From Negativicutes bacterium (GTDB lineage Bacteria > Bacillota > Negativicutes > Anaeromusales > Anaeromusaceae), in contig SAAJ01000004.1 of assembly GCA_009929485.1 (NCBI GenBank), positions 1 through 64,000 of the forward strand: a stretch of 64,000 nt of DNA, in the 5' to 3' direction. Under the pieces are notes generated by a model. That model saw nothing but the letters and a program-made list of their open reading frames with translations. It was not told the DNA's origin and did not search any database. This document shows, piece after piece, positions 504 through 53,172 of this stretch (positions within the stretch are counted from its first letter, which is position 1; each line of letters starts with the position of its first letter). Made by a program: the position numbers and the translations under genes.

Positions 504-932
504 ATGAAAAAATGGATGCAAGTATTGTTACTCTGTTTAGCCGTGTGTTTGGGAACTGGTTTTTGGGGGATGGAGCATGGGGAGGCCGCGGAAAAAGTCG
601 TTTGGACAACGACGGATTTGTACTATGAGCTGGATGGGCAAGGCGCCCCCAAAAATGTACTTGTTATCGAAGGGTATTTTACAAATCATACGGATAAATA
701 TATCAACTATTTTTACGAGCTAAACCTTGCCGCTACCATGAGAGCTGACATTGGGGCTGGCTATACAGGGACCGTGAAGGGAACGTTTCGAAATTTTGAA
801 AAGATGATTGACCCTCATAGCGAGGCTGCTCATACTTTTAGAATTACGAATGCAAAAATAGTTTGGCCTATTGAAGAGTATGAAGTGGTTCAGGGCTATA
901 CGAAATGGAAGCAAAGTGATGCTGCGGGTTGA
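504..932 (+). CDS. small exported protein of unknown function
   Basis: 142 aa. The ATG is well supported by GGGAGGC seven bases upstream. Residues 1-28 form a classic signal peptide (KKW, then a hydrophobic stretch, then an alanine-containing cleavage region before EKVVWTTT). The mature part of about 115 residues looks like a small beta-rich domain with many aromatic residues and a segment reading LVIEGYFTNHTDKYINYF. No catalytic motif, transmembrane segment or lipobox is visible. Its general look recalls short extracellular beta-sandwich proteins, but I do not recognise a family. It is followed after 90 bases by the ankyrin lipoprotein gene in the same direction, so the two may be co-transcribed. 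Confidence 0.75.
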   Translation: MKKWMQVLLLCLAVCLGTGFWGMEHGEAAEKVVWTTTDLYYELDGQGAPKNVLVIEGYFTNHTDKYINYFYELNLAATMRADIGAGYTGTVKGTFRNFEKMIDPHSEAAHTFRITNAKIVWPIEEYEVVQGYTKWKQSDAAG

Positions 933-1022
933 GTTGGTTGGGGTTGATTATTGTATGTATGGATGCGCCGGCGGTTTGCTTAGCCGTGAGATTAAGTAAA
1001 GAAAAAATGGAGGATTAAAATT

Positions 1023-1742
1023 ATGATGATGCGTTTATTCATGGTGGGTTTGCTTTCGATGGCAGTATTGCTTGCGGGATGTTCAAAAAGCCCGGAAGAT
1101 GCAAAGAAAGAGTTAGCCGATAAAAAAATTCAATATAATGAGCAGAGCTTTGTAAAAGCGGTAGAGGATCAAAAGAAGGATGTTGTGGAGCTGTTTATTG
1201 AAGCAGGGATGAACCCCAATGTTACAACTGCTAATGGCACTCCGTTGGTAACCGCAGCGGCGACGGGTAATTTGGAAATGGTTAAGTTTTTGGTTGAAAA
1301 AGGAGCTGACGTAAATAGTAAAAGCAAAGATAAAGGAGACTTAACGCCGCTGTTTGCTGCGATTCTCGGGGGAGGGAAAGACAAAGACAAGCAGGAGACA
1401 GTAAAGTTTTTGTTGGATAAAGGGGCGGACGTGAATGCGCGTTTTGCTTCTAAAGGGTTTGAGGCAACACCGCTGATGATGGCGGCGGCGGAAAAGGATA
1501 CAGAGATCGTTCGGCTGCTGTTGGCGAAGAAACCGGATATTCAAGCGATAGATGCAGGCACAGGACTTACTGCTTTGATGATGGCTGTGCTTAACAATAA
1601 TCTTGAAAATACCAAGGAGCTTTTGGCGCAGGGCGCTGATGTGAATAAGAAAGCTAAAAACAATGTTACAGCTCTTTCGCTGGCGAAACAGGAAAAAAAT
1701 AAGGATATGATTACGATCCTGACGAGTGCAGGAGCAAAGTAA
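1023..1742 (+). CDS. ankyrin-repeat lipoprotein
   Basis: 239 aa. An N-terminal signal ends in the lipobox LLAGC (Cys20), so the protein should be lipid-anchored on the outer face of the inner membrane or in the outer membrane. From about residue 40 it consists of ankyrin repeats. Typical repeat signatures are TPLVTAAATGNLEMVKFLVE and EKGADVNSK, then TPLFAAILG, TPLMMAAAEKDTEIVRLLLA and TALMMAVLNN. Ankyrin repeats mediate protein-protein contacts; no enzyme domain is attached and the partner cannot be guessed. GGAGG lies 7-8 bases before the first of three tandem in-frame start codons (ATGATGATG variants), so the exact start may differ by one or two codons. A strong terminator follows immediately. 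Confidence 0.88.
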   Translation: MMMRLFMVGLLSMAVLLAGCSKSPEDAKKELADKKIQYNEQSFVKAVEDQKKDVVELFIEAGMNPNVTTANGTPLVTAAATGNLEMVKFLVEKGADVNSKSKDKGDLTPLFAAILGGGKDKDKQETVKFLLDKGADVNARFASKGFEATPLMMAAAEKDTEIVRLLLAKKPDIQAIDAGTGLTALMMAVLNNNLENTKELLAQGADVNKKAKNNVTALSLAKQEKNKDMITILTSAGAK

Positions 1743-1744
1743 AA

Positions 1745-1781
1745 AAGGAGAATCGCAACCGTGTGTTGCGATTCTCCTTTT
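1745..1781 (+). terminator. intrinsic terminator of the ankyrin lipoprotein gene
   Basis: Stem AAGGAGAATCGCAA with its complement, 7-base loop, followed by TTTT. It begins three bases after the stop codon. Confidence 0.85.
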
Positions 1782-2172
1782 ATCATCCTGATTGCAGCTG
1801 GTTTCAGAAGCGCTATCAGCGATTTGCTGGCAACGTTCTTTCCAAGAACAACGCTCGTTCCTGCTCCCAACTCATGCCACTCTGTGATCTCATCCCTTCT
1901 GTTGGCATGACGACTAACTCAGTCGCTCAGGATACAGAACTCTTCGGATGAGATGTTGAAGTGGGCTATCCGATCTTACCTTGCCCCACTTATGACTCTT
2001 TGATCCACTTGCGACTCTCTGACTCGCCTATGACTCGTTGACCAAACGGCCCTCTTCTTACTTTCATAGTACACCCGAAAGAGATTAATGTCAATATAGA
2101 GAGGATGTTATATTGTATTCATCAGCAGCCTTTTCATCGAAAAACCTCAAATGCAATACGCAATCCTCTGCC
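1782..2172. other. intergenic region between convergent genes, no gene seen
   Basis: About 390 bases between the ankyrin gene and the end of ppdK. It holds short hairpins (for example around 1833-1856, and TCATGCC/GGCATGA arms at about 1873-1911) and a GACTC-rich repeat tract at about 1985-2042. The short frames here lack good ribosome binding sites and look non-coding. Confidence 0.5.
1985..2042 (-). repeat. purine-rich 3' repeat, copy a (degenerate)
   Basis: The plus strand reads as repeated GACTC/GACTCT units, so the strand matching the ppdK transcript is purine-rich (GAGTC, AGAGAGTC). This resembles the tails found 3' of other genes in the window (see 32215, 34236, 41211, 47285, 53105). 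This copy is the most diverged. Confidence 0.35.
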
Positions 2173-4830
2173 TTAGCGAGTTCCCAATACTTCGCCGTCG
2201 CTCAGCGCCGCCTGAGCTGCAGCCAGGCGGGCTACGGGCACGCGGTAGGGAGAGCAGCTGACAAAGTCCAAGCCGATTTCATGACAAAACTGGATAGAGC
2301 TGGGGTCGCCGCCATGTTCGCCGCAGATGCCGATCAAAAGCTCCGGACGTGTGGCGCGGCCGCCGGCGACAGCCAGGCGCATGAGTTTACCGACGCCTTG
2401 ACGGTCCAGTTCGACAAAGGGATTGGCTTTGAGGATCTTCTGCTCTAAATAATGAGGCAGGAATTTGCCTTCCGCGTCGTCGCGGCTGAAACCCAGGCAG
2501 GTTTGGGTCAGGTCATTGGTGCCGAAGCTAAAGAATTGCGCGCTGGCGGCCAGTTCGTCCGCCAGCAAGGCGGCCCGGGGCAGCTCAATCATGGTGCCGG
2601 CGGTATAGTGGAACTGTACCTGGCGCTCTGCCATGACTTCTTGAGCGATGCGGTCAATGCGCTCTTTGAAGAAATCCATTTCCTCCCGGCTGATGGTGAG
2701 CGGGATTTCTACTTCAGGGAGTGCAGTGAGGCCTTCTTTGGTCAGTCTGGCGGCGGCGTTCATAATGGCCCGGATCTGCATCTCGTATACTTCGGGGTAC
2801 GTAATGCCCAAACGGCAGCCGCGATGTCCCAGCATGGGGTTGAATTCGTGCAGGTGACGGACTTTTTTGAGGAGCAGTTCTTTTTGCGCCAATGTTTGCG
2901 GGTCATTGCCGAGAGTGCGTAGCCGTGTCGTTTCCACTAATAGTTCTTCCAGGCTGGGCAAGAACTCATGCAGCGGCGGATCAAGCAGGCGGATGCAGAC
3001 CGGATAGCCTTCCATGGCTTTTAAAATGCCGTAGAAGTCATTTTCCTGCATGGGCAGCAAATGAGTCAAGGCGTCTTCGCGCGCCTCTAGCGTCTCGGCG
3101 AGAATCATCTGTTGTACATAGGGAAGGCGGTCTTGAGCCATGAACATATGCTCCGTGCGGACCAGACCGATACCGGTTGCGCCGAAGGAACGGGCTTTGG
3201 CGGCGTCTTCAGGGGTATCGGCATTGGCGCGGACATCCAGGCGACGGTATTCATCGGCCCAAGCCAAAAGAGTTAAGTATTCCGGCGAGAGTTCAGGCTC
3301 TTGGAGGGGGATGGAACCGCTGATGACCCGGCCAGTGGCGCCGTCAATAGAGAGGAGGTCGCCTTCTTTTAACGTCAAATTGCCGATGGTCAAGGTCTTG
3401 GCGTTATAATCGATGCGGGCGGCCTCGCAGCCGCAAACGCAAGGTTTTCCCATGCCGCGGGCTACAACAGCGGCGTGGCTGGTCATGCCGCCGCGGCTGG
3501 TTAGAATGCCCTGAGCCATGACGATGCCGTGAATGTCATCAGGAGTGGTCTCGGTACGCACCAAGAGCACTTTTTTGCCTTGGCGTCCCAAAAGTTCTGC
3601 TTCGTCCGCATCAAAGACGATCGATCCTGAAGCGGCGCCCGGCGAGGCTGGCAGACCTTGCGCTAGGACGTCGAGTTTGGCGGAGCTGTCAATCTGGCGG
3701 TGGAGCAGCTGGCCGATTTGCGTTGGTTCCACCATCAAGAGCGCATCGGCGTTGCTTACCAGGCCTTCTTGCACTAAATCGTGAGCCACTTTGACAGCGG
3801 CGGCGGCAGTGCGTTTGCCGTTGCGGGTTTGCAGCATATAGAGCTTGCCTTTTTCGATGGTGAACTCGATATCCTGCATGTTTTTGTAGTGCGTTTCCAA
3901 AGTCTTGACGATTTGACAGAACTGTTCATAGACATGCGGCATGTCGTCCGCCAGCTTTTCAATGCTTTGGGGGGTTCGAATGCCGGCGACGACGTCTTCG
4001 CCTTGGGCATTCATTAAGTACTCGCCGTAGAGCTTGTTTTCGCCGGTCGAGGGATTGCGGCTGAAGGCGACGCCGGTACCGGAGTCGTTGCCCATATTGC
4101 CGAAAACCATAGACTGGATATTGACGGCCGTACCCAGATCGTGGTCGATTTTGTTCAGATTGCGGTAGACGATGGCCCTGTCATTATTCCAAGAGCGGAA
4201 AACGGCCGTAAGGGCCATGAAGAGCTGTTCTTTGGGCTCTTCCGGGAAGTAGCGGCCGCTGTGTTCGTGGACTAGTTTTTTGTATTGTCGGATGACTTCT
4301 TTGAGGGAGTCGGCGCTGAGATCTTGGTCAAAACGGACGCCTTGCTCTTCCTTGACGTCATCAAGAAGTTGTTCGAATTCGTATTTGTGGATGTCAAGAA
4401 CGACGTCGGAGAACATCTGGATAAACCGGCGGTAGGAGTCGTAGGCGAAACGCTCATTACCGGTAGCGGCGGCTAGGCCGACGACGGTGTTGCTGTTCAG
4501 GCCGAGGTTTAAGATGGTATCCATCATGCCAGGCATGGAGAAGACGGCGCCGGAACGAACCGATACCAAAAGCGGATTCGCGGCGTCTCCGAAACGTTTG
4601 CCGGTTTGTTCTTCCAAGACGGCTAATTGACGCGATACTTCCTCTTCCATGCCTGCAGGGAGTTTGGCGCCTTGCGCGTAGTATTCGCGGCAGCCTTCGG
4701 TGCTGATGGTGAAGCCAGGAGGCACCGGCAGACCCAGATTGGTCATTTCGGCTAAGTTGGCGCCTTTGCCTCCTAAAAGCGAGCGCATTTCAGCGCTTCC
4801 CTCCGTAAAAAGGTATACATATTTTTTCAT
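2173..4830 (-). CDS. ppdK: pyruvate, phosphate dikinase
   Basis: 885 aa, usual length for the family. Catalyses the reversible conversion of pyruvate, ATP and Pi to PEP, AMP and PPi in the cytoplasm, serving gluconeogenesis or PPi-linked glycolysis. The N-terminal ATP-grasp nucleotide domain begins with GGKGANLAEM near residue 20. The phosphohistidine loop is TSRGGMTSHAAVVARGMG with catalytic His452. Thr450, two residues before it, is the site that the regulatory protein phosphorylates in this family. The C-terminal PEP/pyruvate TIM barrel includes GIGLVRTEHMF, FFSFGTNDLTQ and SCSPYRVPVARL. The ATG overlaps the stop codon of the upstream PSRP gene by four bases, so the pair is translationally coupled. 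A PPi-type phosphofructokinase at 54612 would fit a PPi-using glycolysis. Confidence 0.97.
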   Translation of the reverse strand: MKKYVYLFTEGSAEMRSLLGGKGANLAEMTNLGLPVPPGFTISTEGCREYYAQGAKLPAGMEEEVSRQLAVLEEQTGKRFGDAANPLLVSVRSGAVFSMPGMMDTILNLGLNSNTVVGLAAATGNERFAYDSYRRFIQMFSDVVLDIHKYEFEQLLDDVKEEQGVRFDQDLSADSLKEVIRQYKKLVHEHSGRYFPEEPKEQLFMALTAVFRSWNNDRAIVYRNLNKIDHDLGTAVNIQSMVFGNMGNDSGTGVAFSRNPSTGENKLYGEYLMNAQGEDVVAGIRTPQSIEKLADDMPHVYEQFCQIVKTLETHYKNMQDIEFTIEKGKLYMLQTRNGKRTAAAAVKVAHDLVQEGLVSNADALLMVEPTQIGQLLHRQIDSSAKLDVLAQGLPASPGAASGSIVFDADEAELLGRQGKKVLLVRTETTPDDIHGIVMAQGILTSRGGMTSHAAVVARGMGKPCVCGCEAARIDYNAKTLTIGNLTLKEGDLLSIDGATGRVISGSIPLQEPELSPEYLTLLAWADEYRRLDVRANADTPEDAAKARSFGATGIGLVRTEHMFMAQDRLPYVQQMILAETLEAREDALTHLLPMQENDFYGILKAMEGYPVCIRLLDPPLHEFLPSLEELLVETTRLRTLGNDPQTLAQKELLLKKVRHLHEFNPMLGHRGCRLGITYPEVYEMQIRAIMNAAARLTKEGLTALPEVEIPLTISREEMDFFKERIDRIAQEVMAERQVQFHYTAGTMIELPRAALLADELAASAQFFSFGTNDLTQTCLGFSRDDAEGKFLPHYLEQKILKANPFVELDRQGVGKLMRLAVAGGRATRPELLIGICGEHGGDPSSIQFCHEIGLDFVSCSPYRVPVARLAAAQAALSDGEVLGTR

Positions 4831-43267: not shown

Positions 43268-44185
43268 ATGCCGATTAAAATACCCAATCGCCTGCCGGCG
43301 CGTAGCGTGCTGGAAAACGAAAATATTTTCATCATGGATGAGGACCGGGCGTACTCGCAGGATATTCGTCCCTTGAAGCTGCTGCTGCTCAATTTGATGC
43401 CGACAAAAATCGTTACGGAAACGCAGTTGCTGCGCCTGTTAGGGAATACGCCGCTGCAGGTGGAAATTGACTTGCTGTACACGGCATCCTATGAGCCGAG
43501 TAATACGTCGCAAGAGCATTTGGTGAAATTCTACGAGACCTTCCAGGATGTGAAGAATCGTAAATATGACGGCATGATTATTACCGGCGCCCCGGTGGAA
43601 CAGATGCCTTTTGAGGAAGTGGCATATTGGCCGGAGTTATGCGAGATCATGGAATGGTCAAAGACTCATGTATATTCGACCATGCATATTTGTTGGGGAG
43701 CCCAGGCGGGGCTGTACTATCACTATGGCGTGCCGAAGGTGGATTTGCCGGCGAAGATGTTCGGCGTCTTTCCGCATCGCTGCGTGGCTACCGAGAGAGA
43801 ACCGTTGTTGCGCGGTTTAGACGATATTTTTTATGTGCCCCATTCGCGGCATACCGATATTTGTAGGCAATCGCTGGAACAGGTGCGAGAGCTCCGCATT
43901 CTGGCGGAATCGGCGGAGTCTGGCGTCTATCTCGTGGCAGATGCCACGGGCCGGCAGATTTTTTTGACGGGCCATGTGGAATACGACGCGCTGACCCTGC
44001 ATAAGGAGTATGAGCGCGATATTGCCAAAGGACTGGATATTGCAGTGCCCCGCAATTATTATCCCCAGGACGATCCGGCGCAAAAGCCGCTGGTTACCTG
44101 GCGCAGCGCGGCGCATTTGCTTTTCGCCAACTGGCTTAACTACTATATGTACCAAGATACGCCGTATGATTTAGAAACATTGTAG
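43268..44185 (+). CDS. metA: MetA, homoserine O-acyltransferase, predicted acetyl-CoA specific
   Basis: 305 aa, normal length. Activates homoserine for methionine synthesis. The nucleophile is Cys142 in [16 protein letters not shown]; His236 and Glu238 lie in LTGHVEYD. The residue known to set acyl-CoA choice is Glu111 ([16 protein letters not shown]): Glu at this place gives acetyl-CoA use and Gly gives succinyl-CoA use in studied MetA enzymes. O-acetylhomoserine as product agrees with the O-acetylhomoserine sulfhydrylase encoded next. The promoter and attenuator-like leader lie just upstream. Confidence 0.95.
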
Positions 44186-44216
44186 TGAGATTAGTAATGC
44201 AAAGGAGTGTTGTTGA

Positions 44217-45503
<1,287 letters not shown>

Positions 45504-45949: not shown

Positions 45950-47089
45950 TTAGCGTGCTTGAAGGGCCTGGCGTAAATCCTGCAGCAAGTCGTCTGGACT
46001 TTCCAAACCTACGGACAGGCGCACAAGGGAATCCGCAATGCCCAGCTTTTGCCGTTCCGCTGCAGGAATGGCGGCATGGGACATGGTAGCCGGATGGGAG
46101 AGAATGCTTTCTACGCCGCCAAGGCTGACGGCAACGGCGGGGAGCTTTACTTGCCCTAAGAGGCGCTGCGTCAATTTGAAGTTCACTAAATCAAAAGAAA
46201 GCACAGCGCCAGGGCCAGCGGCTTGTCCTTCGTGAATGCTGCGGCCGGGATGATTGAGTAAGCCGGGATAATAGACGGCTTTTACTTCCGACCATTGCTG
46301 CAGCTCGGCAGCGATATAGGCGGCTGATTTTTGCGCGGCTTCCAGACGGACCTGCAGCGTGCGCAGGCCGCGCAACGTCAGCCAGCTGTCCTGCGGACCC
46401 AGCACAGCGCCTAGACCGTTTTGCAGCAGATAGACTTCTTTGGCCAGCGCCTTGTCTTTAACAATAACGAGGCCGGCAATGACATCGCTGTGACCGGCGA
46501 TGAATTTAGTAGCCGAGTGGACGACAATATCGGCGCCCAGCTCTAAAGGCCGCTGCAGGAAAGGGGTCATAAAGGTGTTGTCGACGATAACCAACAGTTC
46601 GTGTTTTTTGGCCCAGGCGCAGGCGGCCTTCAGGTCGGTGATCGCCAGCAGCGGATTGGAGGGGGTTTCTAAATAAAGAGCTTTGGTGGTGGGGCGCAAA
46701 GACGCTTCCAGCTGCGCCTGGTCATTCGGGTCAATGAAGGAGTGCTCAATACCCCAGCGCGGGCAGAGGCGGGTCAACACGCGGTGCGTGCCGCCGTAGA
46801 TATCTCTGGCCGCCAAGATGTGATCGCCTTGAGAAAAAAGCAGCAGCGAGGCGCTGACGGCGGCGATGCCGGAAGCAAAAGCAAAAGCTTGGCTGCCTCC
46901 TTCTAGGTCTGCGGCTACCGTTTCCAGCGCCTGCCTTGTAGGATTGCCGCTGCGGGAGTATTCAAAGGGCGCGTTTTCTTCATAACGTTGGTCAAAGGTG
47001 GAAGTTTGAAATACAGGGACGCTGCTGGCCCCTAGGCGTTCGTTTGCCGGCAGGCCGGGAGCCAGCAGGCGGGTAGCAAAATCATGCAT
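45950..47089 (-). CDS. metC: cystathionine beta-lyase
   Basis: 379 aa from the ATG at 47089, which has AAGGAGG eight bases upstream. The frame is open to 47128, but that part lies in repeat DNA and is not coding. Cleaves cystathionine to homocysteine, pyruvate and ammonia. Motifs are FEYSRSGNPTRQALETVAAD, FASGIAAVSA, ETPSNPLLAITDL, the PLP lysine in HSATKFIAGHSDV and VSLGGVESILSHPATMSHAA. Sequence flavour is that of Bacillus MetC, while its neighbour at 47346 matches MetI. A repeat element of 155 bases sits between the two genes, so transcription across it is uncertain. Confidence 0.88.
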   Translation of the reverse strand: MHDFATRLLAPGLPANERLGASSVPVFQTSTFDQRYEENAPFEYSRSGNPTRQALETVAADLEGGSQAFAFASGIAAVSASLLLFSQGDHILAARDIYGGTHRVLTRLCPRWGIEHSFIDPNDQAQLEASLRPTTKALYLETPSNPLLAITDLKAACAWAKKHELLVIVDNTFMTPFLQRPLELGADIVVHSATKFIAGHSDVIAGLVIVKDKALAKEVYLLQNGLGAVLGPQDSWLTLRGLRTLQVRLEAAQKSAAYIAAELQQWSEVKAVYYPGLLNHPGRSIHEGQAAGPGAVLSFDLVNFKLTQRLLGQVKLPAVAVSLGGVESILSHPATMSHAAIPAAERQKLGIADSLVRLSVGLESPDDLLQDLRQALQAR

Positions 47090-47110: not shown

Positions 47111-47265
47111 ACGTTGCTTTACTCGCATCTCACGCTAAACGGGTTCTTTTTCCGCCGGACATCGTCAGAAAGCCTCGGTATAGCGCCGCTATGCCTGTTT
47201 TTTCTTTCTCGTCTGGCGAAAAAACTCCTTAGTTTAGCGGAGTGCTCATGAAAGCAGCGGCTCCT
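47111..47265. repeat. long hairpin element, family A, complete copy
   Basis: Imperfect terminal repeats (TTGCTTTACTCGCATCTCAC then GCTAAAC; at the far end GTTTAGCGGAGTGCTCATGA then AAGCAGC). The centre AGAAAGCCTCGGTATAGCGC then CGCTATGCCT matches the element at 52635. CCGCCGGAC and GTCTGGCG pair farther out, so the whole piece folds on itself. It sits between metI and metC and provides the spurious upstream extension of the metC frame. Confidence 0.65.
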
Positions 47266-47345: not shown

Positions 47346-48479
47346 TCAGCCTAAAGCCTGATCCAGGTCTGCGATGAGGTCGTCGGCGTCTTCAATGCCG
47401 ACGGATAGACGCAGCAGGCAGTCAGAGATGCCAAGGCGTTCACGGTCGGCAGCGGGAATGTCCGCGTGGGTTTGCACGGCGGGGAAAGTAATCAGCGTTT
47501 CAACGCCTCCCAAGCTTTCGGCAAATTGGATGAGCTGGACTTTAGCCAATACCTGGGGTACCAAAGCCGGGTCATTTACTTCAAAAGACACCATGCCGCC
47601 GTAGCCGCTGGCTTGGCTTTCATGAATCGTATGGCCGTTGTGCAGCGGCAGTCCGGGATAGAATACGCGGCTGACTTTTGGGTGTTCTAGCAGCCACCGA
47701 GAAATAGACAGCGCATTAGCGTTGTGCTTTTCCATGCGCAGCGCCAGAGTTTTCAAGCTGCGGATGAGCAGCCAGCTATCGCTGGGGCTGAGAATAGCGC
47801 CGGTAGCATTTTGCAGAAACTTTACTTTTTCGGCCAATTCCGGTTCTTTAGCGACGATGACGCCGCAAAGCAAATCGTTGTGTCCTGCAAGATACTTGGT
47901 GCCGCTATGTACGACAAGGTCGGCGCCAAGCTCTAAGGGGCGCTGGAAGTACGGCGTCAAAAACGTATTATCTACAATAAGATGGAGATTATTGCTGCGA
48001 CAAAACGAAGCCAAGGCCCGCAAATCCACAATGCGCAGGAGGGGGTTTGTGGGGGTTTCAATGAAGACGGCTTTAGTTTCCGGGCGCAAGGCTTGTCCGA
48101 TGGCATCGAGGGTGGTCGCGTCGACATAGGAAGCAGTCAGGCCAAAGCGCGACAGCACTTGTTCAAAAAGGCGATAAGTGCCGCCGTAACAGTCTTCGAC
48201 GACAATCAAATGGTCGCCTTGCTGATACAGCATTAAAAGTGTAGTGATAGCCGCCAGACCGGAAGAAAACGCACAGGCGCCGGCGCCTCCTTCAAGGCGG
48301 GCCAGTCCTTCTTCGAGAGCTTGCCTTGTAGGATTGCCGCTGCGGGTGTAATCATAGCCGGTGCTTTCTCCCAAAGCAGGGTGGCGGAAGGATGCGGTTT
48401 GGTAAATCGGGGTGCTCAACGAGCCGGTGCGAGGATCGGCTTTGCAGCCGATTTGAACAAGCTGTGAAGAAATATGCAT
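47346..48479 (-). CDS. metI: cystathionine gamma-synthase / O-acetylhomoserine thiolyase, MetI-type
   Basis: 377 aa from ATG 48479 with AAGGAG eight bases upstream; a GTG three codons earlier overlaps that site. PLP enzyme that joins O-acetylhomoserine with cysteine (or sulfide). It resembles Bacillus MetI: GSLSTPIYQTASFRHPALGE, YDYTRSGNPTRQALEEGLA, FSSGLAAITTL, ETPTNPLLRIVDL, PLP lysine in HSGTKYLAGHNDLL and FAESLGGVETLITFPAVQTH. Homologues of this type are sometimes cystathionine gamma-lyases, but the paired metC and the SAM-I riboswitch upstream favour methionine synthesis. The tiny gene at 48500-48619 ends 20 bases before it. Confidence 0.9.
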   Translation of the reverse strand: MHISSQLVQIGCKADPRTGSLSTPIYQTASFRHPALGESTGYDYTRSGNPTRQALEEGLARLEGGAGACAFSSGLAAITTLLMLYQQGDHLIVVEDCYGGTYRLFEQVLSRFGLTASYVDATTLDAIGQALRPETKAVFIETPTNPLLRIVDLRALASFCRSNNLHLIVDNTFLTPYFQRPLELGADLVVHSGTKYLAGHNDLLCGVIVAKEPELAEKVKFLQNATGAILSPSDSWLLIRSLKTLALRMEKHNANALSISRWLLEHPKVSRVFYPGLPLHNGHTIHESQASGYGGMVSFEVNDPALVPQVLAKVQLIQFAESLGGVETLITFPAVQTHADIPAADRERLGISDCLLRLSVGIEDADDLIADLDQALG

Positions 48480-48499: not shown

Positions 48500-48619
48500 C
48501 TATTTTTTTTCTATTACACGTTTCGTAAAGCTGACAATACTGCCGCCGCGGATGACAATAACAATTTCTTCTTCCTGCGAGGTCGGCTCACAGGGAGGCT
48601 TTGGCGTGCTTGGATTCAT
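48500..48619 (-). CDS. 39-aa microprotein behind SAM-I riboswitch 2
   Basis: 39 aa from ATG 48619, with GGAGGTGA seven bases upstream; the longer open frame runs through the riboswitch terminator and is not the gene. The start is proline- and threonine-rich (MNPSTPKPPCEPTS), then comes QEEEIVIVIRGGSIVSFTKR and VIEKK. The block QEE-x-(I/V)3-xxx-GS-(I/V)V-xx-T-x-R recurs in the 47-aa protein at 48817, so the two are paralogues. No signal peptide or membrane segment. It lies between riboswitch 2 and metI and should be expressed with metI when SAM is low. Function unknown; a regulatory or sulfur-related small protein or a leader peptide are options. Confidence 0.65.
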   Translation of the reverse strand: MNPSTPKPPCEPTSQEEEIVIVIRGGSIVSFTKRVIEKK

Positions 48620-48639
48620 GAAGGTCACCTCCGGAAAAT

Positions 48640-48672
48640 AAAAAAACAGGCCCCAAGACGAACGGGCCTGCC
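48640..48672 (-). terminator. expression-platform terminator of SAM-I riboswitch 2
   Basis: CAGGCCC with GGGGCCTG followed by seven T on the minus strand. The competing antiterminator GACG-ACGG with CCGT-CGTC uses the 3' strand of aptamer helix P1, the normal OFF-switch design. Confidence 0.88.
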
Positions 48673-48676
48673 GTAC

Positions 48677-48788
48677 GTCTCTCATCTTTCAGGCGCATTG
48701 CCTGCTGGAATTGGCACCACTGCAGTTTCCTGCCGGTTGCCGGGCGTCATTGGGCCAGTCCCTCAGCCTCTCTTGATAAGAGAACTTA
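48677..48788 (-). ncRNA. SAM-I riboswitch 2 (S-box), upstream of the 39-aa gene and metI
   Basis: On the minus strand the full S-box consensus is present: CTTATCAAGAGAGGCTGAGG, then GACTGGCCC, ATGACGCCCGGCAACC, GGTGCCAATTCCAGCA and GAAAGATGAGAGA. P1 forms from TCTCTTATC and GATGAGAGA. Over about 80 bases it differs from riboswitch 1 at a single position, which indicates recent duplication or gene conversion. Confidence 0.96.
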
Positions 48789-48816
48789 CATATGAAGTTA
48801 AAAAGTATGGCTTTTA

Positions 48817-48960
48817 TTAGGTTAGGCTTGTTGGAAGAAACGAGCTGTCGCCGCTGCGGCTAGTGCAGGTAACAACCGAACCGTCACTTAAAAACACCAA
48901 CACCTGCTCTTCCTGACCATGGGCTTGTTCGGGTGAAAAAATAAATTCCTTTTGTTCCAT
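48817..48960 (-). CDS. 47-aa microprotein behind SAM-I riboswitch 1
   Basis: 47 aa, too short for usual gene calling. ATG 48960 has AGGAGGTG at ideal spacing, directly after the riboswitch 1 terminator. The centre QEEQVLVFLSDGSVVTCTSR matches QEEEIVIVIRGGSIVSFTKR of the protein at 48500, the flanks differ (MEQKEFIFSPEQAHG; SGDSSFLPTSLT). No signal peptide or membrane helix. Its placement behind a SAM-I switch means expression at low SAM. I know no such family. It could be a small partner of a methionine enzyme or a remnant of one, but the kept core, ribosome binding site and riboswitch in both copies favour a functional gene. Confidence 0.65.
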   Translation of the reverse strand: MEQKEFIFSPEQAHGQEEQVLVFLSDGSVVTCTSRSGDSSFLPTSLT

Positions 48961-48990: not shown

Positions 48991-49021
48991 AAAAAATCCT
49001 CTTCTCTAGAGAGAAAAGGGG
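48991..49021 (-). terminator. expression-platform terminator of SAM-I riboswitch 1
   Basis: CCTTTTCTCT pairs with AGAGAAGAGG, then ATTTTTTATTTT on the minus strand. The 3' strand of P1 (GATAAGAGGAGGG) can instead pair with CCCCTTTTCTC. Confidence 0.82.
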
Positions 49022-49034
49022 TGCAAACAAATGC

Positions 49035-49144
49035 CCTCCTCTTATCTCCCAGGCGGCTAGCCTGCTGGAATTGGCACCACTGCAGTTTCCTGCCGGTTGC
49101 CGGGCGTCATCGGGCCAGTCCCTCAGCCTCTCTTGATAAGCGGT
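49035..49144 (-). ncRNA. SAM-I riboswitch 1 (S-box), first of the tandem pair
   Basis: Same conserved blocks as riboswitch 2 (CTTATCAAGAGAGGCTGAGG, ATGACGCCCGGCAACC, GGTGCCAATTCCAGCA). P1 is GCTTATC with GATAAG. Its promoter lies directly upstream. The order promoter, switch 1, 47-aa gene, switch 2, 39-aa gene, metI means metI transcripts from this promoter must pass two SAM checkpoints. Confidence 0.96.
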
Positions 49145-49168: not shown

Positions 49169-49197
49169 AGAATACCATGGGTTTATGCAGGAGTCAA
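49169..49197 (-). promoter_or_regulatory. promoter of the riboswitch-metI operon
   Basis: On the minus strand TTGACT, 17 bases, TATTCT, ending about 25 bases before the aptamer. No equally clear promoter is visible between the 47-aa gene and riboswitch 2. Confidence 0.6.
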
Positions 49198-52636: not shown

Positions 52637-52796
52637 GAAGTTGCTGACTTATGAGCCCATGCCACGCTAGTCCTTTTTCCGCCTAGCGGCGTCAAGAAAG
52701 CCTCAAAATAGCGCCGCTATTCCCTCGGCTTCCTTTCCTTGCCAGACGAAAAAATTACTCAGTGTGGCAGAGCGCTCAGTAAATCAGCAACTCCTC
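52635..52796. repeat. long hairpin element, family A, most complete copy
   Basis: About 162 bp. Terminal repeats: GAGAAGTTGCTGACTTATGA then GCCCATGCCACGCTAG at the left; GTGTGGCAGAGCGCTCAGTA then AATCAGCAACTCCTC at the right. Inside, TTTTTCCGCCTAGCGGCGTC pairs with the region ending GCCAGACGAAAAAA, and the centre is the palindrome ATAGCGCCGCTAT. The whole element can form one long imperfect hairpin and codes for nothing visible. Confidence 0.75.
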
Positions 52797-53095
52797 TTAT
52801 TGGTTTAAATTATATTTTCTTTCTTGCCTGGCGAAAACATTCTTCGTCTCGGCGGAGCGCTCATTAAATCACAGGCTCCCTTTAAACTGTTATAGAATTT
52901 ACTCAGTGTGGCAGAGCGCTCAGTAAATCAGCAGCTCCTCTTATTGGTTTAAATTGGTTTAAATTATATTTTTTGTTTTTTATGAGCAGTTATCGTGAAA
53001 GCCTCGCCATAGCCCCGCTATGCCTGCGTTTTCTTTCTTGCCTGACGCAAACATTCTTCGCCTCGGCGGAGCGCTCATTAAATCACAGGCTCCCT
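52797..53095. repeat. mosaic array of partial family A elements
   Basis: Contains two further half elements and one near-complete one (52981-53095). A block of about 57 bases at 52755-52811 (TTACTCAGTGTGGCAGAGCG...TTATTGGTTTAAATT) is repeated at 52899-52955. A block of about 62 bases at 52819-52880 (CTTTCTTGCCTGGCGAAAAC...CACAGGCTCCC) is repeated at 53034-53094. GGTTTAAATT is itself doubled at 52946-52965. The order suggests insertion of elements into each other followed by duplication. Confidence 0.7.
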
Positions 53096-53104
53096 ATAAA
53101 TAAT

Positions 53105-53172
53105 AAAAAGATATTCTCTGTTTTCCTCTGTTACTCAGTTGCTCTGTGTTCCGTACCTTCCGCCGGGTCTGT
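53105..53172 (-). repeat. purine-rich 3' repeat, copy h
   Basis: Lies just 3' of trpB; in the trpB sense it reads GGAACACAGAGCAACTGAGT then AACAGAGGAAAACAGAG, closely like copy c after xpt. Confidence 0.55.

Follow-up and report, generated by a model that had tools for sequence, protein, structure and literature searches.

SAM-I riboswitch-controlled microproteins of the Negativicutes, a probable hairpin-only offshoot of the DUF2292/YezD family

Two very short genes, encoding microproteins of 47 and 39 amino acids (A and B), each follow a SAM-I riboswitch in the analysed window, a stretch of 64,000 nucleotides from a member of the Negativicutes, and they represent a family which is linked to SAM-I riboswitches throughout this class. 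On balance, we favour the view that A and B are a SAM-I-controlled, hairpin-only offshoot of the DUF2292/YezD family (PF10055) and that they are likely accessory to enzymes forming homocysteine or cysteine.

The module is encoded on the minus strand and starts with a probable promoter (49169..49197; TTGACT, 17 nt, TATTCT, with a TG before the -10 hexamer), which was recognised by a consensus scan and alignment, is sigma-70-like and is mostly kept within the genus. It is followed by SAM-I aptamer 1 (49039..49142; Rfam RF00162, 87.3 bits, E 2.4e-19), a terminator stem running into ATTTTTT (48998..49019; terminator scan and folding), and ORF A (48817..48960 including the stop codon; MEQKEFIFSPEQAHGQEEQVLVFLSDGSVVTCTSRSGDSSFLPTSLT), which is kept in four genomes. 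The stop codon of A is located 34 nt upstream of aptamer 2 (48679..48782; RF00162, 92.4 bits, E 7.8e-21), and behind this aptamer a terminator-like hairpin, caggccc...ggggcctg followed by TTTTTTT, was identified from the sequence, its fold and the spacer listing (48649..48674, limits approximate). Then come ORF B (48500..48619 including the stop codon; MNPSTPKPPCEPTSQEEEIVIVIRGGSIVSFTKRVIEKK) and, 20 nt after its stop codon, the ATG of a gene for a MetI-like PLP enzyme (47346..48479; Shine-Dalgarno sequence aaggag; Cys_Met_Meta_PP, Pfam PF01053, E 2e-147). The two aptamers are the sole RNA-family matches to Rfam in the window and both exceed the RF00162 gathering threshold of 44.4 bits; behind each lies a GC-rich hairpin with a U-tract, i.e. 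an intrinsic terminator, so that an expression platform is present. Strong Shine-Dalgarno sequences precede A (acaggaggtgccgtcATG, containing aggaggtg) and B (ccggaggtgaccttcATG), 78 and 59 nt past the respective aptamer. The sequence-only reading had described both ORFs as tiny genes with strong ribosome binding sites directly behind SAM-I riboswitch terminators, and this was borne out, coordinates and sequences included.

In NCBIfam, the MetI-like enzyme is placed in the cystathionine gamma-synthase/gamma-lyase group with scores under the equivalog cut-offs. A second PLP enzyme of Cys/Met metabolism is encoded downstream of it on the same strand (MetC-like; 45950..47089; PF01053, E 7e-137), the best NCBIfam match of which, under the cut-off, is cystathionine beta-lyase. 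Facing this metI/metC pair, a homoserine O-succinyltransferase-family gene and a MetY-type gene are located on the plus strand (43268-45503), upstream of which no riboswitch was found. The window also contains a dispersed intergenic repeat of about 60-97 nt, whose copies are 60-97% alike and are clustered near 52.7-53.1 kb (52730-52822, 52815-52907, 52896-52955 and 53029-53121), with one further copy between the two PLP genes (47168-47264).

A and B are real, selected protein-coding genes. The window genome and the three other genomes of the genus all carry the complete, undamaged module, and the substitutions between them fall predominantly in third codon positions (14 of 18 in A between G000, the window genome, and G001; 9 of 10 in B between G000 and G002). 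The synonymous bias is strong in both genes (pN/pS 0.03-0.28; for A, 0.05-0.15 in the five pairs with at least six changes), with pS values of 0.12-0.45 versus pN values of 0.01-0.05 in diverged genome pairs. Among the more diverged genomes, A shows 9-13 synonymous versus 4-5 non-synonymous changes, the respective numbers of sites being about 30 and 112; for B the counts, which leave out the B gene of the fourth genome (82% identical), are 9 versus 1, 6 versus 2 and, in the least diverged pair, 3 versus 3. The ribosome binding sites of both genes are moreover invariant in the genus alignment. A and B are selected as proteins, as the sequence-only reading had proposed, and are probably translated in the cell. 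Two conditions were named in that reading as refuting it, a lack of homologues downstream of S-boxes and a lack of codon-position bias; both were examined, and neither applies.

Sequence comparison identifies A and B as paralogues: their gapless local alignment covers 26 residues with a score of 51, which was reached by none of 5000 shuffles of A (mean 19.3, sd 3.9). The aptamers preceding them are 92% identical, while an identity matrix gave 59-70% against three further SAM-I aptamers of this genome. Taken together, the paralogy and the aptamer identity argue for a joint duplication, and riboswitch and microprotein were therefore probably duplicated as a unit before the genus split, in line with the duplicated module suggested earlier. 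A second tandem SAM-I pair is present in another family of the class (L034), with aptamers 90% identical, a microprotein gene between them and metI thereafter; it is either an independent duplication or a pair kept similar by conversion. For A, a sequence search yielded no clear homologue outside the genus. Weak matches to A were obtained in genus g57 but were rejected, as the one example checked had no SAM-I riboswitch nearby and no short ORF preceded by a ribosome binding site. Compared with the members of the family described below that come from other genera, summed over all of them, A scored above 1000 of 1000 shuffles, and against the family profile only 9 of 20,000 shuffles scored as well.

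A search of the class with B gave weak matches which turned out to lie downstream of SAM-I riboswitches. With a family profile built from ten members, 22 loci outside the genus, 14 of them absent from the training alignment, were detected at E < 1e-4; they are distributed over nine further families of the class. Of these 22 loci, 21 have a SAM-I riboswitch upstream on the same strand. In 16, the microprotein gene is the first gene after the aptamer, with a terminator between them and, where measured, a distance of 59-164 nt; in five (L107, L110, L159, L161 and L162) the riboswitch lies farther up the operon with at least one gene between. At the remaining locus (L160), no SAM-I riboswitch was found within the stretch read, the neighbouring genes of which resemble metQ and metY by inspection. 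With about four aptamers per genome, the regions downstream of SAM-I riboswitches are estimated to make up on the order of 0.1% of one strand of these genomes, which excludes chance linkage even when families rather than loci are counted. In the reverse direction, when the 1795 segments of a six-frame translation of the window were searched with a profile from other genera only, B came first (E 3e-9) and A second, with an E value of 0.55 that is not significant alone.

The members of this family, 39-65 amino acids long and distributed over about ten bacterial families, have as their conserved part the consensus E-I-I-I-x-I-R-x-G-x-V-V-x-F-x-Q, which would correspond to a single beta-hairpin. 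A first profile search of genome contigs (alignment A2) gave no confirmed relative; in a second one, Pelosinus propionicus and P. fermentans were among the carriers. In sampling across the phylum, no matches were obtained from other classes apart from double-DUF2292 proteins and chance similarities to a strand of BadF-type ATPases, and the microproteins thus look restricted to the class in the sample searched. Neither A nor B matched Pfam at E values up to 1 or any NCBIfam model, no meaningful match was obtained when PDB sequences were searched with profiles of the microproteins and of YezD, and no description of riboswitch-linked microproteins was found in open-licence full texts. The family thus is apparently undescribed and absent from curated models. 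The earlier statement that the two proteins have no known family accordingly holds for these models, but not beyond them, because homologues downstream of S-boxes do exist throughout the class and are probably distantly related to DUF2292/YezD.

The genes next to family members include metI, metY, metX, larE, hcp, thiF and DUF2292 genes, the commonest neighbour being a LarE-type sulfur transferase gene. The arrangements comprise SAM-micro-SAM-metI (L034), SAM-metX-micro-metY (L107), SAM-YezD-metY-micro-metI (L159), SAM-YezD-YezD-micro-larE (L110), SAM-ACT-micro-YezD-YezD-metY-larE (L161) and, in Pelosinus-type genomes, SAM-micro-larE. At L161 (914-1588), and probably also at L162, the gene right behind the riboswitch and upstream of the microprotein gene encodes an ACT-domain protein, which at L161 possibly provides the operon with a second, protein-level amino acid sensor. 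Another locus (L163 of genome G305, 807-3149) contains a SAM-I riboswitch, a microprotein ending in GDGI, a ThiF/MoeB-like adenylyltransferase and a small sulfite/nitrite reductase-like protein, and is a candidate sulfur module. The window genome itself has, on another contig (L156; G000 contig C78, 9000-14500), a SAM-I riboswitch followed by genes for an aminotransferase, a lipoprotein that is MetQ-like by inspection, a LarE-type sulfur transferase, a double YezD protein of 108 amino acids and CysK; in the class at large, LarE is repeatedly encountered next to YezD and methionine genes.

DUF2292 genes of the class have a gene for CysK, MetI, MetY, LarE or MetQ within 1.5 kb at 24 of 30 loci, which points to an accessory role in homocysteine and cysteine synthesis at low SAM. 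It might instead be assumed that the microproteins are standalone modulators without a tie to sulfur enzymes, for which SAM shortage is only a timing cue, and it fits this assumption that some relatives precede hcp or genes without an obvious sulfur role, such as those for cation efflux or an outer-membrane efflux protein. We consider it unlikely, though still to be given some weight, in view of the DUF2292 surroundings just mentioned and of the metI, metY, metX, larE, thiF or DUF2292 neighbours found in most genera.

To our knowledge, the function of DUF2292/YezD is uncharacterised, and the family occurs in sulfur operons. In open-licence full texts we found passing mentions and no study devoted to it: yezD is included in an expression table together with yitJ (PMC3862929) and adjoins a sulfate transporter gene (PMC7953295). 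Like the microproteins, YezD proteins are encoded in Cys/Met-synthesis operons, often under SAM-I control, and at L161 and L110 in adjoining genes. The tail LEGxxGDGI, with which many microproteins end, is also present in the second protein of SAM-I-linked DUF2292 pairs of the same class. A profile-profile comparison of the two groups gave an hhalign probability of 95% (E 2.6e-8) over small local alignments. When a profile of 59 DUF2292 domains, containing no microprotein, was run over 1773 segments, six real DUF2292 ORFs came first and eight microproteins occupied places 7-14, with individual E values that are not significant (best 0.039; 26 for B), and none of ten family members matched PF10055 at E values up to 10 (gathering cut-off 22 bits). 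The microproteins therefore fall outside PF10055 in its present definition, but they probably descend from DUF2292/YezD.

AlphaFold predicts for B a beta-hairpin formed by strands 15-24 and 27-37 around a GG turn, with block pLDDT values of 90-98 in the hairpin from residue 21 on and no helix in residues 1-14, and for YezD a helix (residues 6-30) followed by strands 36-43 and 46-54 (mean pLDDT 68). In these models the microprotein looks like the tight-turn hairpin of YezD minus the helix. No significant match was obtained when the YezD model was compared with the folds in the PDB. Besides the predicted N-terminal helix, the microproteins lack the QIERxEKxR motif of YezD, and in A and B the GDGI tail is missing as well. 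The similarity could also be due to convergence of short beta-hairpins, in which case the microproteins would be an unrelated new family. The missing Pfam match fits such an origin, and a strand pattern can be mimicked by unrelated proteins; short alternating beta-strand motifs indeed also match BadF-type ATPases with E values of about 1e-3, so that motif likeness by itself is weak. We regard convergence as quite improbable, however, given the shared C-terminal tail, the common operons, adjoining genes and regulator, and the rank enrichment obtained with the profile that had been trained on DUF2292 domains alone. The evidence favours an origin from YezD and the predicted hairpin fold, and the accessory role is a likely reading of the gene context.

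Characterised S-boxes follow a SAM-OFF logic, and by analogy with them and from the order of aptamer and terminator, both riboswitches of the window should switch in this direction. A single promoter would then serve the whole transcript, which either riboswitch would terminate when SAM is plentiful; at low SAM, polymerase passing riboswitch 1 would allow A to be made, and polymerase also passing riboswitch 2 would allow B and the MetI-like enzyme to be made. With the switches in series, B and MetI would need both to be open and A only the first, so that the joint production with MetI proposed in the sequence-only reading is likely for B, located 20 nt from the metI start, while A, preceding the second riboswitch, can be produced on its own. 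The aptamers as such are ordinary representatives of RF00162, and what is unusual is the microprotein gene behind each. A review counted 164 tandem SAM-I doublets, for which pseudo-cooperative control is expected (PMC9481103). The present locus resembles these in having two complete riboswitches with two expression platforms in series, but differs in that a selected ORF sits between them, and the first riboswitch thus has a gene product of its own.

The position of A between two riboswitches, together with the short distance from B to the metI start, makes translational coupling plausible and could mean that A and B are regulatory leader ORFs, in which ribosome movement tunes riboswitch 2 or couples to metI and the peptides themselves are inert. 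We think this has little chance of being correct: selection acts on the amino acids, the core of which is kept over about ten families while the gene sits in different places (in the metX-metY or the metY-metI interval, or behind a pair of YezD genes), runs of Met or Cys codons do not occur, and a ribosome at the stop codon of A would scarcely reach aptamer 2. Sulfur carriers of the ThiS/HcyS type have a C-terminal Gly-Gly and a ubiquitin-like fold, and it is highly improbable that the microproteins are such thiocarboxylate-forming carriers, whose C terminus a ThiF- or LarE-type ATPase would activate, even with LarE as the commonest neighbour and a ThiF/MoeB-like enzyme after one member, since A ends in SLT, B in EKK and others in GDGI, and the predicted fold is a hairpin.

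According to the reading we favour, A and B would assist, as small accessory proteins, the enzymes by which sulfur is incorporated into homocysteine and cysteine, with MetI, MetY, CysK or the LarE-type sulfur donor encoded beside the family elsewhere as candidate partners, and the edge of the hairpin might dock onto the enzyme or onto YezD. More speculatively, the hairpin microproteins could, together with YezD pairs and the LarE-type ATPase, form an unrecognised SAM-gated module for supplying or metering the sulfur needed in homocysteine and cysteine synthesis, in which the microprotein would be an adaptor or brake, paired by lineage with MetI, MetY, CysK or LarE; in this full form, we would hold the proposal to be rather doubtful.

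The family is more widespread than the sequence-only reading had claimed and its hairpin-only form is new, although the relation to YezD, already known as a family but still uncharacterised, takes away part of its novelty. A gene right behind a riboswitch inherits a functional clue from the ligand, and here a riboswitch of known ligand marks a family of 39-65 amino acids and ties it to DUF2292/YezD. This uncharacterised domain thereby gains a testable hypothesis, namely that its members are small accessory factors of sulfur-amino-acid synthesis, and some of the arrangements described as tandem SAM-I riboswitches are two genes with their own switch each rather than a single control unit for one gene.
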